Shown here in pieces: positions 37,960 to 44,384 of a stretch of DNA of 47,266 bases. The first letter of the stretch is position 1; every line of letters begins with the position of its first letter. The notes under the pieces are model-generated. The model was not told the DNA's origin, searched no databases, and was given only the letters and a program-made list of their open reading frames with translations. Source of the DNA: Actinomyces sp. ICM47 (GTDB lineage Bacteria; Actinomycetota; Actinomycetes; Actinomycetales; Actinomycetaceae); the NCBI RefSeq assembly GCF_000278725.1, contig NZ_ALCA01000064.1:1-47266 (forward strand). The letters run 5' to 3'. The position numbers and the translations under genes are program-made.

Positions 37960-38633
37960 CCATCTCCCCAGGAACCAATTTCGACGACCCCCGATTCCAC
38001 GACGATGGGCGCACGCCCGCCCGACGCATGCGCGACGGCGACTACTACGTTGCGGACGATGAACTCTCGGCGCTCACGAGGCGGGCCGTTCGTCTTCTTG
38101 GCCTCTACGAGCAGGCTCACCCGAGCGACCCAGACATCGCTCGCTACCTGCTCTCCCAGGTCCTCGGACAGGTGGGGGAGAATGTTGATATTCGCCCGCC
38201 CCTGCGCGTCGATTACGGTGACAACATCACCATCGGGGACGGCTCCTGGGTTAACTTTGGCCTCACCGCCCTCGATGTTGCTCCTATTGTGATCGGTGCT
38301 GACGTTCTCATCGGACCGAACTGCTCCCTCTACACGGCGATCCACCCGACCGAGCCCGGGCCTCGTCGCGCCAAGTGGGAATCCTCCGCGCCCATCACCC
38401 TCGAGGACAACGTGTGGCTGGGCGGCTCCGTCGTCGTCTGCCCCGGCGTGACCATCGGCGAAAACTCGATTATCGGCGCGGGCGCGGTCGTCACGCGCTC
38501 GATTCCCCCGAACTCCGTCGCCGTCGGAAACCCCGCCTGCGTCATCAAGGCACTCGACCCGAGCGTGCCGCGCGCCATCGAAGCCTCCGGCGTTGGCGTC
38601 ATAAGCCGCGGGGAAACGGGGGAGCGGGCATGA
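37956..38633 (+). CDS. Sugar O-acetyltransferase, left-handed beta-helix (maltose/galactoside acetyltransferase-like)
   Basis: The 225-residue protein belongs to the hexapeptide-repeat acetyltransferases (LacA/Maa/NodL type). Residues 18-70 are the typical helical maltose-acetyltransferase N-terminus (ARRMRDGDYYVADDELSALT). The beta-helix follows with hexapeptide repeats such as GENVDIRPPLRVDYGDNITI, IGADVLIGPNC, LEDNVWLGGSVVVCPGVTIG and ENSIIGAGAVVTRSIPPNS. The conserved catalytic His is in LYTAIHP. It ends with VAVGNPACVIK. The start overlaps the upstream gene and the stop overlaps def, each by four bases. It probably acetylates a sugar or similar hydroxyl compound with acetyl-CoA. Confidence 0.9.
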   Translation: MTISPGTNFDDPRFHDDGRTPARRMRDGDYYVADDELSALTRRAVRLLGLYEQAHPSDPDIARYLLSQVLGQVGENVDIRPPLRVDYGDNITIGDGSWVNFGLTALDVAPIVIGADVLIGPNCSLYTAIHPTEPGPRRAKWESSAPITLEDNVWLGGSVVVCPGVTIGENSIIGAGAVVTRSIPPNSVAVGNPACVIKALDPSVPRAIEASGVGVISRGETGERA

Positions 38634-39268
38634 GCGTCCTGCCGATCTGCATCACGGGCGAGCCTGTCCTCCACCGGGTCGCGGATCCCGTCGAATCCTT
38701 CGACTCAACCCTGCGCGACCTGGTGGCCAACATGATCGAGACGATGCACGCAGCCCCCGGCGTCGGATTAGCCGCTCCGCAGGTGGGCGTCGGCCTCCAG
38801 CTTTTCGTCTGGTCTTATCGCGGCGGTGGTGCCTTTGATCGGCGCTACAAGGACATCCTGGGAGTCGACGACGGAGCAGCCCGCGGCTACAACTCCGCAA
38901 TGAGCGGCGTCGTCGTCAACCCGACGCTCGAACTCGTCTGGGATAACGATGGCGTCGGCGCGATTCTACCCACGCAGCCCGACATGACGAATGAGTCCGA
39001 AGGATGCCTCTCCGTCCCCGGTGTCCAGTACCCGCTACGCCGCGCGCTCGGAGCGATCCTACGCGGCTACGACGCCGACGGGAACGTTGTCCGGGTCGCC
39101 GCCCGCGGATGGCTCGCTCGCATCTTCCAACACGAGTACGACCACCTGCGCGGAACCCTCTACGTTGATCGCCTCGATACGCCCTACCGTGAGTCCTCGC
39201 GCGCACACGTGGCCGAACGAGGCTGGGGCATCCCCGGATACACGTGGACCCCGGGGGAGCGAGCCTAG
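38630..39268 (+). CDS. def: Peptide deformylase
   Basis: Peptide deformylase removes the N-formyl group from nascent proteins using a metal at a Cys-His-His site. The 212-residue product has motif I GVGLAAPQ (44-51), motif II EGCLSVPG with the metal-ligand Cys and motif III QHEYDHLRGTL (HExxH). It carries an insertion between motifs I and II (about 60-100), a feature of some actinobacterial deformylases. ATG 38630 overlaps the acetyltransferase stop and has GGGGGAG upstream. It is not next to fmt; this may be one of several deformylases in the genome. It converges on pflA with only 36 bp between them. Confidence 0.95.
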   Translation: MSVLPICITGEPVLHRVADPVESFDSTLRDLVANMIETMHAAPGVGLAAPQVGVGLQLFVWSYRGGGAFDRRYKDILGVDDGAARGYNSAMSGVVVNPTLELVWDNDGVGAILPTQPDMTNESEGCLSVPGVQYPLRRALGAILRGYDADGNVVRVAARGWLARIFQHEYDHLRGTLYVDRLDTPYRESSRAHVAERGWGIPGYTWTPGERA

Positions 39269-39304: not shown

Positions 39305-40183
39305 TCAGTGGACCTCGAAGCCCAGCGAACGGAAGTAGTTGCGCACATCCTCCGTCGCTGCGGGTGTCGGGGCCTTCGCGTCCTCGAGCTGGTACTCCAG
39401 GCCGAGCGAATGCCATTTGTCTTTGCCGAGCTGATGGAAAGGCAGAACCTCAATACGGTCGATGACATTCTTCCAGCGGCTGACGATTTCGCCAACCTTG
39501 CGGATGTTGTCAGGGTCGTCCGTCAGACCCGGAACCAAGACAAAACGGATCCAGATACGGGTGTCACCGCCGCGTGCCGCGATGCGGTCGCCGAAGGTGA
39601 TCGTGGGAGCCAGATCGCGGCCCGTCGCCTTCTTGTACGTCTCTGGGTCGCCGCTCTTCACATCCAACAGCACGAGGTCGATGGCATCAAGCATCTCGTC
39701 ATCGCAGTTCGCGCCCAGGTAACCGGAGGTGTCAATGCATGTGTGCACACCCATCTCCTTAGCACCCAGGAGGATGCGTTTGGCGAAATGGGGCTGCATG
39801 AGAACTTCACCGCCGGATAGCGTGATTCCGCCCTTCGTTGTGCGGAAAATGCGGCGATAGCGCGCAATACGAGACAGCAGTTCCGTATCGGACACGGGCG
39901 CGCCGTCCTTCATGAGGAACGTATCGGGGTTGTGACAGTACAGACAGCGCAGCGGGCAGCCGTTCAGAAACACGGTCATGCGCGTTCCGGGACCGTCAAC
40001 GGCTGTGACAAGTTCCCATGAATGGATCGAACCGAGCGTGCCCTCGCGCATGCGTCGCAGGCGTTCGGAACGCTCCAGGTCCGTGATCTCCTCAAGGCCC
40101 TCAACACCCGCACCGACGGTGCGGGACTGGGGGGCTTGGAAGTCCTGCTCGCGAAAAGTCGGAATAGCGAGGAGCTGCGTCAT
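39305..40183 (-). CDS. pflA: Pyruvate formate-lyase-activating enzyme
   Basis: PflA is a radical-SAM enzyme that abstracts a hydrogen from a glycine in the glycyl-radical domain of pyruvate formate-lyase. The 292-residue protein has its 4Fe-4S motif C76-x3-C80-x2-C83 in NGCPLRCLYCHNPDT, GGITLSGGEVLMQPHF (SAM-binding GGE) and LLDVKSGDPETYKK. LVPGLTDDPDNI and EVLPFHQLGKDKWHSL complete the family signature. About 47 residues precede the point where E. coli PflA starts; Bifidobacterium PflA has a similar extension, so this appears lineage-typical. The ATG at 40181-40183 has GAAGGAA upstream on the minus strand. The gene is third in the operon, after pflB and the separate glycyl-radical domain. 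Confidence 0.95.
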   Translation of the reverse strand: MTQLLAIPTFREQDFQAPQSRTVGAGVEGLEEITDLERSERLRRMREGTLGSIHSWELVTAVDGPGTRMTVFLNGCPLRCLYCHNPDTFLMKDGAPVSDTELLSRIARYRRIFRTTKGGITLSGGEVLMQPHFAKRILLGAKEMGVHTCIDTSGYLGANCDDEMLDAIDLVLLDVKSGDPETYKKATGRDLAPTITFGDRIAARGGDTRIWIRFVLVPGLTDDPDNIRKVGEIVSRWKNVIDRIEVLPFHQLGKDKWHSLGLEYQLEDAKAPTPAATEDVRNYFRSLGFEVH

Positions 40184-40225
40184 GTTTCCTTCTTCGAGGG
40201 GATGGGGCGCGGTGTTCACGCAGGA

Positions 40226-40237
40226 ACGAGGCCGGGG
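40226..40237 (+). repeat. Intergenic single copy of the 12-mer ACGAGGCCGGGG (pflA leader)
   Basis: Exact copy in the gap between the glycyl-radical-domain gene and pflA, 43 bp before the pflA start. There is no inverted partner; a shorter stem (GTCGG/CCGAC) lies next to it. Confidence 0.8.
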
Positions 40238-40272
40238 TAGGTCGGTGGGATTGGCCGACAGCGGCATACAGA

Positions 40273-40310
40273 GTAGTGGGGCGTCGTGCGTACGCCCGAC
40301 GCCCCACTAC
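40273..40310 (-). terminator. Stem-loop between the glycyl-radical-domain gene and pflA
   Basis: GTAGTGGGGCGTCG (40273-40286) and CGACGCCCCACTAC (40297-40310) are a perfect 14-bp inverted repeat with a 10-base loop, 10 bp past the stop of the small gene. It could end most transcripts after the small gene and lower pflA expression. Confidence 0.75.
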
Positions 40311-40320
40311 ATTCGACCGA

Positions 40321-40572
40321 TCAGGCCGAGTGGTGGAAGGTGCGGGACAGAACGTCCAGCTGCTGCTCACGGGTGAGCTTGACGAAGTTCACGGCGTAGC
40401 CGGAGACGCGAACGGTCAGGTTCGGGTACTTCTCGGGGTGCTCCATGGCGTCCTTCAGGGTGGACTCCTCGAGCACGTTGATGTTCGCGTGGTACAGGCC
40501 GTCCTTGTCGCCGCGCTCCTCGCGAGCGGCCTTCATGTCAGCGAGACGCTCTTCGTAGGTCTTGGTTGCCAT
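40321..40572 (-). CDS. grcA2: Autonomous glycyl-radical domain protein (GrcA-like), half of a split pyruvate formate-lyase
   Basis: The 83 residues match the C-terminus of pyruvate formate-lyase: [38 protein letters not shown] and [14 protein letters not shown]. Gly58 in RVSGYAV is the residue that would carry the radical. Residues 1-25 are charged and have no equivalent in full-length enzymes. The ATG at 40570-40572 has AAGGAG eight bases upstream on the minus strand. The larger subunit encoded just upstream stops exactly where this domain should begin, and 701 residues plus about 58 from here equals the 760 of E. coli PflB. It is therefore likely an obligate subunit rather than the stress 'spare part' YfiD/GrcA, which is 127 residues and coexists with an intact enzyme. 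Confidence 0.93.
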
Positions 40573-40596
40573 AACATTTCTCCTTACTTGTGAGAC

Positions 40597-40686
40597 GCCG
40601 GCGGTGCCGGCTGGGCGAACCGGGTTGCGGTGCGCCCACGATGGTGGGTGGCGGGGATCAACGCAGGTTGCACATCGACCCCCGCC
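40597..40686 (-). promoter_or_regulatory. Intercistronic hairpins between pflB and the glycyl-radical-domain gene
   Basis: The 123-bp gap holds a 10-bp stem (40650-40659 with 40677-40686; one G-U pair on the minus strand), CCCAC-GATG-GTGGG (40634-40647) and GCCGGC-GGT-GCCGGC (40597-40611), the last ending 24 bp before the start of the small gene. No T-run follows, so read-through or RNA processing is as likely as termination. Confidence 0.6.
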
Positions 40687-40695
40687 AATGGTGGA

Positions 40696-42801
40696 TCAGT
40701 AGCCCTTGGTGCCGTCGTAGGCGCAGGAATCGTCCGGAACGAAGCCCGCGTCGAGGATGCCGACCAGGTTCTGGATCTGCTCTTCCTTGGAACGACCCAG
40801 GCCCTGCGGGGTGATCGTGTTCGTCAGCGAGATGCCGTCGAGCGCGTCGTTGTAGTCCAGCTTGCCGACCGACAGCATGGAGGCAACCATGCCGTGCGTG
40901 TCGATGCCGTTCTCCGGGTTCGCGCCGGGGGCGAAGGGGGTGCCCTTCTCGTGGCCCGACGGGAAGGAACCGGTGGCCTTGCCGTAGACGACGTTCGAGG
41001 TGATCGTCAGGACCGACTGGGTCGGGATCGCGTCGCGGTACATGGGGATCGCGCGAATCTTGTCCATGACGGTGTGGACGACGGTCGCGGCGATGTCGTC
41101 GGCGCGGTCATCGTCGTTGCCGTAGGTCGGGAAGTCGCCCTCGGTGCGGTAGTCGACGACCAGGCCGGTCTCGTCGCGGATCGGGTAGACCTTCGCGTAC
41201 TTGATTGCGGCCAGGGAGTCGGCGACGATGGACAGACCGGCGATACCGCAGCCCATGGTGCGCACGATCTCAGCGTCGTGCAGTGCCATCTCGATGGCCT
41301 CGTAGGCGTAGCGGTCGTGGCAGTAGTGGATGATGTTGAGGGCCTCGACATAGGTGCCGACGACCCAGTCCAGCATTTCCTCGTAGCGCTTCCACACGTC
41401 GTCGAAGTCGAGCGGGCCGTCACCCTGGACGGGCTCGTAGCCTTCCATGACCTGCTTGCCGGTCATCTCGTCGCGGCCACCGTTGATGGCGTAGAGGAGA
41501 GCCTTGGCGGCGTTGACGCGAGCGCCGAAGAACTGCATCTGCTTGCCGACGCGCATGGGGGAGACGCAGCATGCGATGGCGGCGTCGTCGCCCCAGTGGG
41601 CGCGGATCTGCGGATCGGACTCGTACTGGATCGACGAGGTCTCGATCGAAATGCGAGCGCAGAACTCCTTGTAACCGCGGGGCAGGTTCTCGTCCCAGAA
41701 GATGGTGATGTTCGGCTCGGGCGCGGGACCCAGGTTCACCAGGGTCTGGAGCAGACGGAAGGAGGTCTTGGTGACCAGCGTACGACCGTCGTCGCCGAAG
41801 CCAGCGTCCGACCAGGTGGCCCAGTAGGGGTCACCGGAGAAGATCTGGTCGTAGGCGATGGTGCGCAGGAAGCGGGTGATACGCAGCTTGATGACGAGGG
41901 CGTCGATGATCTCCTGCGCGCCGGACTCATCCAGCGTACCGTTCTTCAGATCACGCTCGAAGTAGCAGTCGAAGAAGCCGGAGAGACGACCGATCGACAT
42001 AGCGGCACCGTCCTGGGACTTCACGGAAGCCAGGTAGCCGAAGTAGGTCCACTGCACGGCCTCGTGTGCGTTGGTGGCGGGGCCGGAGATGTCGTAGCCG
42101 TAGGAGGCGGCCAGGTTCTTCAGCTTCTTGAGGGCCTTGATCTGCTCGGAGTGCTCCTCGCGGTAGCGTGCCCAGTGCTCGGAGAAGGGCTGGTCGGCGT
42201 AGCGATCCTTATCCTTCTGCTTCTCGGCGATCAGGTGGTCCACGCCGTACAGGGCCACGCGGCGGTAGTCGCCGATGATGCGACCGCGGCCGTAGGCATC
42301 CGGCAGGCCGGTGATGATGTGGGAGGAGCGAGCGGCGCGAATACGCGGGGTGTAGATATCGAAGACTGCGTCGTTGTGGGTCTTGCGGTACTGGGTGAAG
42401 ATCTTCTTCACCTCGGGGTTGTATTCCTTGCCGGCCTCGTGGATGGCGGTCTCGACCATGCGCCAGCCGCCGTTCGGCATCATTGCGCGCTTGAGCGGGG
42501 CGTCGGTCTGCAGGCCGACGATCACGTTGTCGTCCTCGCAAATGTAACCGGGCTTGAAGGCGTCGATGTCAGCCGGGGTATCGGTGTCAACGTCGAGGAT
42601 GCGCACCTTGCGCTCTTCGGAAAGGTACTTTTCCTCAAGGGTGTTCCAGACCCGCATGGTCTTTTCGGTGGGACCCGCCAGGAACGAGGCATCGCCCTCG
42701 TACGGCGTGTAGTTCAGCTGGATGAAGTCGCGCACGTCGATTTCATCGCACCAGTTACCCTTGACAAAACCTTCCCAGGCTTTCTGGTCTGCTGTCGTCA
42801 T
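40696..42801 (-). CDS. pflB: Pyruvate formate-lyase large subunit lacking the glycyl-radical domain
   Basis: Pyruvate formate-lyase converts pyruvate and CoA to acetyl-CoA and formate in anaerobic sugar metabolism. The 701-residue subunit has the PFL domain from the start (WEGFVKGNWCDEIDVRDFIQ, then NYTPYEGDASFLAG) and the active-site pair Cys411-Cys412 in IACCVSPMRVGK. EDNVIVGLQTDAPLKRAMMP and LPDAYGRGRIIGDYRR are substrate-site motifs. The chain ends NLVGILDAGFVPDDSCAYDG and four more residues; the RVSGYA segment is absent and appears in the next gene. The ATG at 42799-42801 has AAGAGGAAGA upstream. The TGA at 40696-40698 is not rescued by a nearby frame: the 123 bp after it show no PFL-like coding. 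A 780-residue plus-strand frame opposite is a GC-bias shadow. Confidence 0.96.
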   Translation of the reverse strand: MTTADQKAWEGFVKGNWCDEIDVRDFIQLNYTPYEGDASFLAGPTEKTMRVWNTLEEKYLSEERKVRILDVDTDTPADIDAFKPGYICEDDNVIVGLQTDAPLKRAMMPNGGWRMVETAIHEAGKEYNPEVKKIFTQYRKTHNDAVFDIYTPRIRAARSSHIITGLPDAYGRGRIIGDYRRVALYGVDHLIAEKQKDKDRYADQPFSEHWARYREEHSEQIKALKKLKNLAASYGYDISGPATNAHEAVQWTYFGYLASVKSQDGAAMSIGRLSGFFDCYFERDLKNGTLDESGAQEIIDALVIKLRITRFLRTIAYDQIFSGDPYWATWSDAGFGDDGRTLVTKTSFRLLQTLVNLGPAPEPNITIFWDENLPRGYKEFCARISIETSSIQYESDPQIRAHWGDDAAIACCVSPMRVGKQMQFFGARVNAAKALLYAINGGRDEMTGKQVMEGYEPVQGDGPLDFDDVWKRYEEMLDWVVGTYVEALNIIHYCHDRYAYEAIEMALHDAEIVRTMGCGIAGLSIVADSLAAIKYAKVYPIRDETGLVVDYRTEGDFPTYGNDDDRADDIAATVVHTVMDKIRAIPMYRDAIPTQSVLTITSNVVYGKATGSFPSGHEKGTPFAPGANPENGIDTHGMVASMLSVGKLDYNDALDGISLTNTITPQGLGRSKEEQIQNLVGILDAGFVPDDSCAYDGTKGY

Positions 42802-42867
42802 TCTTCCTCTTCTCGGATCTTTCCGTATCCCTGTGGGGACGGTTGTAGGGAGCAAAGCTCCGTCAGT

Positions 42868-42884
42868 GCGCCGGATTCCGGCGC
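42868..42884. promoter_or_regulatory. Perfect 17-bp palindrome upstream of pflB
   Basis: GCGCCGGA-T-TCCGGCGC, 67 bp upstream of the pflB ATG. It lies downstream of the candidate promoter, in the leader of the minus-strand transcript, and could be an operator or a leader hairpin. Confidence 0.45.
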
Positions 42885-42892
42885 TTGGGTCT

Positions 42893-42921
42893 ATTGTCCT
42901 ACGACCGATGGGGTGGGACAA
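42893..42921 (-). promoter_or_regulatory. Candidate pflB promoter
   Basis: On the minus strand TTGTCC (42916-42921) and GACAAT (42893-42898) are separated by 17 bases. TTGTCC matches four of six -35 consensus bases. GTAGGAC-like motifs lie over and around it. This is a weak prediction. Confidence 0.3.
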
Positions 42922-43076
42922 CCGCTTTCGTCTATCGACCTATGCTCTGTGTCTCAGGGGTGTGGGTCTTAAGTCTCCCACGCTTCAATTGTAGGACGAA
43001 GGTCCCCGTAAAGAAAGTGGGGGCTTTGACCACATACACTGGTGTCAGTGCCCGTTTCACGAAGGAGAAAATTCCT

Positions 43077-44384
43077 ATGTCTGCACCCCGTCCGGTCCTC
43101 GGAGTTGGCGTTCTTGGAGCTGGAACCGTTGGTAGCCAGGTCATTCGCATCCTGCAGTCGAGCCGTGAGGATTTCGCGGCACGTTCCGGTGCTGAGATGG
43201 AGGTCCGCCGCGTTCTCGTCCGCAATGTGGATGCTCCGCGTGACTCGCCGATTGATCGCGAGCTGCTGACGACGGACCCTGCTGAGGCGATTGACGGGAT
43301 GGACCTCGTGGTCGAGTTGATCGGCGGCATCGAGCCTGCGCGCACGTTCGTGCTGCGCGCCCTCACACAGGGTATTTCGGTCGTGACGGGTAACAAGGCG
43401 TTGCTGGCCGCCCACGGCCCCGAACTGTACGAGGCTGCCGCCTCCAACGACGCGGACCTTTATTACGAGGCCGCCGTGGCCGGCGCGGTCCCCGTCGTAT
43501 ACGGTCTGCGCGAGTCGCTGGCCGGTGACCGCGTCACCACCGTGATGGGCATTGTCAACGGCACGACGAACTTCATCCTGGACGCCATGAGTTCCAAGGG
43601 CCTGAGCTACGAGGATGCCCTCAAGCAGGCGCAGGACCTGGGCTTCGCCGAGGCCGATCCGACCGCAGACGTCGAGGGCCTGGATGCCGCAGCGAAGTGC
43701 TCCATCCTGGCCTCGCTGGCCTTCCACACGCGCGTCGGCATCGACGACGTCGCGGTCGAAGGTATCTCCAATATCACCAAGGAGGACATGGAAGAGGCCG
43801 CTCGTGTCGGCCACACCATCAAGCTCCTGGCCATTGCCGAGCGCCGCATCGGTGAGGATGGCCGCGAGGGAGTCGCCATGCGCGTTCACCCCGCCCAGGT
43901 GCCATCCGACCATCCGCTGGCTTCCGTCGACGGTGCCTTCAACGCGATTCTGGTCGAGGGTGAGAACGCCGGACGCCTCATGTTCTACGGCCAGGGTGCC
44001 GGCGGGGCTCCCACGGCCTCGGCCGTCCTGTCCGACCTCGTGGCCGCTGCGCATCACCGCGCCTTCGGAGGTCACGCCCCTCGCGAATCCGTCTACGCCC
44101 ACCTGCCGATCCTCGATCCCGGATCGACCCACACGCGCTACCAGATCCGCCTGCAGGTCGAGGACCGTCTCGGCGTGCTCTCCGACGTCGCCGGTATTTT
44201 CGCCCGCCACGGCGTCTCGATCCAGTCGGTGCACCAGCGCAACGACGAGGTTCCCGGTGCGTGCGTCATCGTCGTGACCAGCCATCAGGCCCGCGAGGCA
44301 GACCTGCGCGCCGTCGCTCGTGCGCTCGCCGTGTCCGACGCCGTGCGCGAGGTGACCTCCACGATCCGCGTTGAGGGTGAGTGA
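43077..44384 (+). CDS. hom: Homoserine dehydrogenase
   Basis: This enzyme reduces aspartate semialdehyde to homoserine with NAD(P)H, the branch point to threonine, isoleucine and methionine. The 435-residue product starts at ATG 43077 with GAAGGAG upstream. The Rossmann motif is GVLGAGTVGSQVI, then VTGNKALLAAHGPELYEAA and VAGAVPVVYGLRESLAGD; the catalytic-domain signature is GIVNGTTNFILDAM with DPTADVEGLDAAAKCSILA. A C-terminal ACT domain (about 355-430, RLQVEDRLGVLSDVAGIFAR) should bind threonine for feedback inhibition. thrB follows at once, on the same strand. The gene is divergent from pflB with a 275-bp intergenic region. Confidence 0.96.
   Translation: MSAPRPVLGVGVLGAGTVGSQVIRILQSSREDFAARSGAEMEVRRVLVRNVDAPRDSPIDRELLTTDPAEAIDGMDLVVELIGGIEPARTFVLRALTQGISVVTGNKALLAAHGPELYEAAASNDADLYYEAAVAGAVPVVYGLRESLAGDRVTTVMGIVNGTTNFILDAMSSKGLSYEDALKQAQDLGFAEADPTADVEGLDAAAKCSILASLAFHTRVGIDDVAVEGISNITKEDMEEAARVGHTIKLLAIAERRIGEDGREGVAMRVHPAQVPSDHPLASVDGAFNAILVEGENAGRLMFYGQGAGGAPTASAVLSDLVAAAHHRAFGGHAPRESVYAHLPILDPGSTHTRYQIRLQVEDRLGVLSDVAGIFARHGVSIQSVHQRNDEVPGACVIVVTSHQAREADLRAVARALAVSDAVREVTSTIRVEGE

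Follow-up and report, generated by a model that had tools for sequence, protein, structure and literature searches.

How can a pyruvate formate-lyase (PFL) whose main chain lacks the glycyl-radical segment be complete? The question was raised by a locus of Actinomyces sp. ICM47 on contig NZ_ALCA01000064.1 (positions 1 to 47,266; this whole stretch of 47,266 nucleotides is called the window below). PFL is sensitive to oxygen and cleaves pyruvate to formate and acetyl-CoA. In the minus-strand gene order a PFL core is followed by an 83-residue glycyl-radical protein and then by pflA. The following features were assigned.

40696..42801, minus strand: PFL core, 701 aa, the catalytic body without the glycyl-radical segment (TIGR01255, PF02901, alignment to E. 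coli PFL)
41566..41571, minus strand: codons of the catalytic pair Cys411-Cys412 (alignment to E. coli Cys418/419 and codon reading)
40573..40695, minus strand: spacer of 123 nt with stem-loops and the Shine-Dalgarno-like AAGGAG (40580-40585) of the small gene
40321..40572, minus strand: glycyl-radical subunit, 83 aa, GrcA2 family (NF008341, PF01228, E. coli PFL alignment)
40507..40572, minus strand: N-terminal extension of the small protein, residues 1-22, a predicted helix with Arg9, Met13 and Arg17
40399..40401, minus strand: Gly58 codon, predicted site of the radical (RVSGYA, by alignment to the radical-glycine region of E. coli PFL)
39305..40183, minus strand: pflA, PFL-activating radical SAM enzyme, 292 aa (TIGR02493)

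Two complementary parts of one enzyme

The core matched positions 1-682 of the 744 of TIGR01255 with 1000.6 bits, which exceeds the cut-off (994.2) without any contribution from the second gene, and PF02901 with 671.2 bits. Based on phmmer, its residues 7-689 correspond to residues 9-695 of E. coli PFL, and its adjacent cysteines Cys411 and Cys412 align with Cys418/419. The chain ends in GTKGY followed by a TGA stop and carries no glycyl-radical motif, which sits in the next gene. The small protein covered positions 685-743 of TIGR01255, and its residues 23-82 were aligned to residues 699-758 of E. coli PFL. Since the two chains together amount to one PflB with no duplicated segment, PFL is encoded here as two complementary, non-overlapping parts. 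The cysteine pair and RVSGYA are kept as in E. coli PflB; unlike that enzyme, the window has two genes, and the alignments leave about 22 N-terminal residues of the small protein and 12 C-terminal residues of the core without an E. coli equivalent.

An earlier note on this DNA, made without database searches, had described a 701-residue core with Cys411-Cys412 and without RVSGYA, a next gene 123 nt downstream with its own AAGGAG that encodes 83 residues including RVSGYA and Gly58, two lengths adding up to one PflB, and pflA in the same gene group. All of this was borne out by the reading of codons and open reading frames (ORFs), the E. coli alignments, the TIGR01255 coverage and the position of pflA downstream of the small gene; the interpretation which that note built on it is, as a whole, partly supported.

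The small protein was assigned to GrcA2 by score (NF008341, 165.9 bits, cut-off 145), as were 6 of 6 relatives scanned. It matched PF01228 with 63 bits and fell short of the family of the YfiD-type spare part GrcA (TIGR04365, 81.9 bits, cut-off 170). The pflA product scored 291.9 bits against TIGR02493 (cut-off 231.75, scanned from 40192); its start at 40183 was our choice, based on the upstream AGAAGGAAA. Judged by these comparisons and by analogy with E. coli, the locus very probably encodes an obligate two-subunit PFL, in which core, radical subunit and PflA act together.

The split is conserved and excludes the fused enzyme

The family of Actinomyces naeslundii (G003) was sampled with 141 genomes, which were searched for PFL at E <= 1e-100. 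Exactly one PFL was found in each of 121 genomes and none in 20. The match ended at model position 676-702 in 89 genomes (split) and at 742-744 in 32 (fused), and none of the 121 held both forms. Two to four PF01228-type matches were present in each split genome. No stand-alone radical protein occurred in the 32 fused genomes, where one (27 genomes) or two (5 genomes) PF01228 matches all lay in long ORFs. Because this search scores a long-linker re-fusion (L016 in genome G015) the same as a split, a junction check was needed. Open frames of at least 780 were present in 27 of the 89 split-type genomes, and all 27 junctions read were split: 24 were fetched, each showing a stop codon and a small gene of its own, while G001, G003 and G010 correspond to the split loci L001, L003 and L011. 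With two others, the fetched junctions make 26 of 26 further ones that were split with both genes in place. The frames of the other 60 split-type genomes are shorter and could not accommodate core, extension and domain as a single chain.

In G071, on a contig of 2.53 Mb, the small protein and the core end are identical to those of the window, and only one PFL and two half-domain matches were found. Among the 32 genomes behind the loci described below, the two halves were the sole PF01228 matches in 25. Extra full-length glycyl-radical genes, far below the PFL cut-off or unscored, were seen in G001, G002, G026 and G032, and an additional half-domain near a contig end in G017; the two re-fused genes are in G015 and G018, the latter with a further full-length gene as well.

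A phylum-wide search of 396 genomes brought out another 21 in which a radical ORF stands alone (93-104 bits). In all 21 the PFL core match ended at model position 665-670 and the small-protein match started at 655-665. This second split (loci L104-L122) is cut about 17 model positions before the window-type cut. Its small protein starts with the native QxDNLVxMxDxY (19 loci read; invariant in 10 aligned), a segment which stays in the core in the window's type, and its core tail has at least two cysteines in 17 of 19. The small proteins are GrcA3 (NF038360, 163.9-168.3 bits, cut-off 158, in 6 of 6 scanned), a protein of 83 residues in 114 of 120 listed relatives according to independent gene calls. 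An extra short ORF (C3:423899-424123, 100 aa) with a weak GrcA3-like match of 70.5 bits was seen in G669, a genome whose own PFL is split. Named GrcA3 relatives are Olsenella, Collinsella, Enorma, Thermophilibacter and an Atopobiaceae bacterium, from which the second-split genomes were inferred to be Coriobacteriia. In a sample of 139 Coriobacteriia genomes, 42 had a PFL, of which 33 were split, 8 were fused and one (G706) was cut by a contig end. GrcA3 was above cut-off in 12 of 12 further split Coriobacteriia genomes; no stand-alone copy was found in the 8 fused ones, and G706 shows neither. At E <= 1e-100 a second PFL was absent from all 89 split family genomes and all 33 split Coriobacteriia genomes. 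The proposal that the trans arrangement is the only PFL form was thus upheld in the relatives, G071 included.

These samples bear on a rival reading, in which the small protein would be a spare part like YfiD and serve only to repair oxygen-cut PFL. Such a role would agree with the NCBIfam name 'autonomous glycyl radical cofactor GrcA2' and with the match to its homologue YfiD of E. coli (6owr, 72.5 bits). Like YfiD/GrcA of E. coli and Y06I of phage T4, the small protein is a separate carrier of beta-strand, glycine loop and helix, and those proteins act in trans with PFL activase (PMC8683613). However, the split genomes searched, relatives such as G071 among them, offer no intact PFL to mend, the small protein is missing from the fused genomes searched, and the core is without beta10, the strand which oxygen cleavage leaves on PFL (PMC8683613). 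E. coli YfiD is a 127-aa repair part that duplicates beta10 of a one-chain PFL, whereas the split genomes have no one-chain PFL and duplicate nothing. That the small protein and the one-chain enzyme exclude each other in the samples is the behaviour of a subunit and not of a spare part, and we consider a pure repair role improbable.

The second alternative is that read-through or frameshifting yields a fused PFL, so that no real split exists. A single TGA is all that divides the core and the small gene of the window in an otherwise open frame (40573-40698), which would allow it. The comparison was extended to 32 window-type loci, a set which includes the window and L123, with small-gene starts picked as those giving a protein nearest 83 aa. 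Relative to the core, the small gene was in frame 0 in 12, frame 1 in 13 and frame 2 in 7; the core stop was TGA, TAA or TAG, and the spacers ranged from -4 to 219 nt. In the second type the small gene was in frame 0 in 7 of 19, with TAA or TAG stops and spacers of 34 to 210 nt. Read-through or frameshifting is thus not the rule; the random-looking frame and varying stops fit separate translation, and there is little to recommend the fused product. Equally little probability is given to the idea that the pair catalyses a different glycyl-radical reaction, in favour of which it can be said that glycyl radical enzymes have their fold in common.

The spacer RNA was considered as a specific feature and rejected, because many loci have equally strong stem-loops on the downstream side of the small gene. 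The stem-loops of the window's spacer are strong (z -4.05, and -3.44 in another run). In the second type z <= -2 was reached by the spacer in 16 of 18 loci (L121 left out) and by the region downstream of the small gene in 12 of these 18; in the window's type, with only spacers of at least 55 nt, the figures were 6 of 17 versus 9 of 17.

Conservation was further examined with core residues 200-701 as query. Among the 120 best of 7999 matches, which were listed, the core had 701 aa in 116 and ended in TKGY in 118, and RVSGY occurred in none; named relatives 100% identical over these residues include Schaalia odontolytica and Actinomyces sp. Independent gene calls gave GrcA2 a length of 83 residues in 94 of 120 listed relatives. 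The best 80 loci kept comprised 30 split like the window, 49 fused and one cut by a contig end. With 12 relatives, of which L003 was skipped because of its length, the proportion of nonsynonymous differences (pN) over the whole small ORF was 0.11-0.21 versus a synonymous one (pS) of 0.29-0.85, and pN was below pS in 11 of 11 comparisons, which indicates purifying selection on the small ORF as a whole. An error of sequencing or assembly, or a broken PFL gene, to which the interrupted frame and an additional stop inside the core of a related split locus from a metagenome-assembled genome (L030) might point, can be dismissed in view of this selection, of the lengths and loci just counted in separate assemblies, and of the 26 further junctions.

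A second, independent split and a re-fusion

In the tree of the 80 loci, 3 changes were needed for 31 split and 49 fused rows. The split Coriobacteriia cores, of which 11 of 19 were used, nest inside fused Coriobacteriia PFLs. One common origin of both splits was rejected by the approximately unbiased (AU) test with p 0.0012 (58 rows), p 2.6e-7 (41 rows; L016 and L019 constrained to the split group) and p 1.7e-49 (45 rows). On the basis of these trees, the PFL split arose at least twice, independently, among related bacteria. The two cuts lie at different sites, both before beta10, which suggests a general advantage or ease of a cut there.

The opposite event was also seen. In Corynebacterium sp. 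Marseille-P4321 (L016:1690-4095) a single open frame runs through the core tail, the former spacer, the start Met and the extension and is, by its sequence, a natural re-fusion of core and small protein. The fused PFL of Bifidobacteriaceae (L032-L052, L054-L061, L063) falls within the split cores in three trees built from selected rows, which raises the changes for the window's type to 4. The fused PFL of Bifidobacterium and its kin may thus itself be a re-fusion, or it may be ancestral: the alternative tree, with the split and the two re-fused rows constrained to one group, was not rejected (AU, p 0.34, 41 rows).

Docking, activation and meaning of the pair

For the two-subunit enzyme the following course is proposed by analogy with E. 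coli. The 701-aa core would provide the barrel and the cysteine pair, and the 83-aa subunit would complete the barrel with its last strand (beta10) and add the loop with Gly58 as well as the C-terminal helix. The subunit would dock at the position held by the C-terminal domain in one-chain PFLs, probably aided by its own N-terminal helix. Once the subunit is bound, PflA would generate the radical at its Gly58, as it does with YfiD bound to PFL, and Gly58 would hand it on to Cys412. As a hypothesis only, a subunit cleaved by oxygen might be thrown away in favour of a new one, with the core kept in use. E. coli work is the basis from which docking, activation of the complexed subunit and catalysis are all inferred. 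A truncated E. coli PFL (tPFL, residues 1-695, a laboratory construct) was cut practically where the window's core ends and reached wild-type activity once a trans radical domain was activated (PMC8683613). In vivo, PflB G734A still made formate at an intermediate level if GrcA was present (PMC12338860).

The same construct also presents the main difficulty. Its binding of YfiD was too weak to measure, and its activation was 32-fold lower than that of oxygen-cut PFL with YfiD (PMC8683613). A special docking feature must therefore exist if the two-subunit reading is right, and a natural pair whose core ends at the tPFL cut must have solved the binding problem. The candidate is the N-terminal extension, in which the window's natural partner differs from the partner of truncation-made tPFL. 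Arg9, Met13 and Arg17 were invariant in 45 chosen small proteins, R-x3-M-x3-R was present in 113 of 117 relatives examined among 120 matches listed, and the extension was absent from the fused-PFL junctions read, except for the re-fused L016. In a model of the small protein alone, residues 6-19 formed a helix with a pLDDT of about 65-71. Docking on the core is probably helped by this helix. Outside the three residues the extension changes rapidly: for the extension alone pN was 0.20-0.43 versus pS 0.22-0.75, and pN exceeded pS in 2 of 11 comparisons.

Besides the behaviour of tPFL, several results weigh against the two-subunit scheme as drawn. In the model of the small protein alone the beta10 strand was not formed (residues 21-32, pLDDT <50), the extension helix in the L016 model was placed at a pLDDT of only ~44-47, and conservation of the extension was mainly limited to the three residues. 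The split locus L018 showed no pflA inside the 14 kb fetched. The fetched stretch contained pflA in 29 of 32 window-type loci (the others being L018 and, on short contigs, L006 and L064) and in 15 of 19 second-type loci (E <= 1e-20, stretches of 6.6-7.9 kb). The oxygen rationale has its own difficulty. Collinsella and Olsenella are strict anaerobes, and as such relatives carry the second split, oxygen need not be the sole driver.

A broader idea is offered tentatively, with slightly more doubt than belief. PFL would have been divided on at least two occasions into a lasting body and a radical cartridge of about 83 residues that can be exchanged. The loop movement presumed for one-chain PFL on activation would be partly replaced by binding and release of the subunit, allowing a cartridge that is spent or cut by oxygen to be swapped. 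If this were true, GrcA2 and GrcA3 would be enzyme subunits rather than repair proteins, and docking, the function missing in E. coli tPFL, would fall to the window-type helix with Arg9, Met13 and Arg17. Apart from this idea, the genomic findings let two database families of 'autonomous cofactors' be re-read as obligate subunits in many Actinomycetota. The pair is also a natural system for the question of how the glycine loop exits the barrel to the activating enzyme and then returns; with two chains, exit and return can be followed as binding, and the radical subunit can be titrated, labelled and swapped.

The earlier note had left open whether the split was already described. Trans-acting radical domains are known, as are GrcA2 and GrcA3 by name, so the small protein of the window had a name already; the names GrcA2 and GrcA3 are silent on a partner enzyme that lacks the domain. 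Andorfer et al. treated the GrcA family as predicted spare parts (PMC8683613), and our results suggest that proteins so labelled are really permanent subunits. No description of PFL as an obligate two-subunit enzyme was found in the open-licence PMC literature, as far as titles and starts of abstracts reveal. Hypophosphite-suppressed formate was reported for Mobiluncus mulieris (Actinomycetaceae) and Fannyhessea vaginae (Atopobiaceae) in PMC12208373, and a joint fall of grcA and pflB in F. vaginae in PMC11979175; neither was used as evidence for the split enzyme.

A consensus promoter scan of 40150-43100 identified no promoter, and no minus-strand terminator. An N-terminal extension of PflA was tried as a co-adaptation to the split and rejected, because Bifidobacteriaceae with fused PFL share the early candidate starts, 60-70 codons ahead of the DGPG motif (starts judged roughly). 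The surroundings of the PFL genes are ordinary housekeeping genes, with peptide deformylase (38633-39268) and homoserine dehydrogenase (42885-44384) as plus-strand neighbours.

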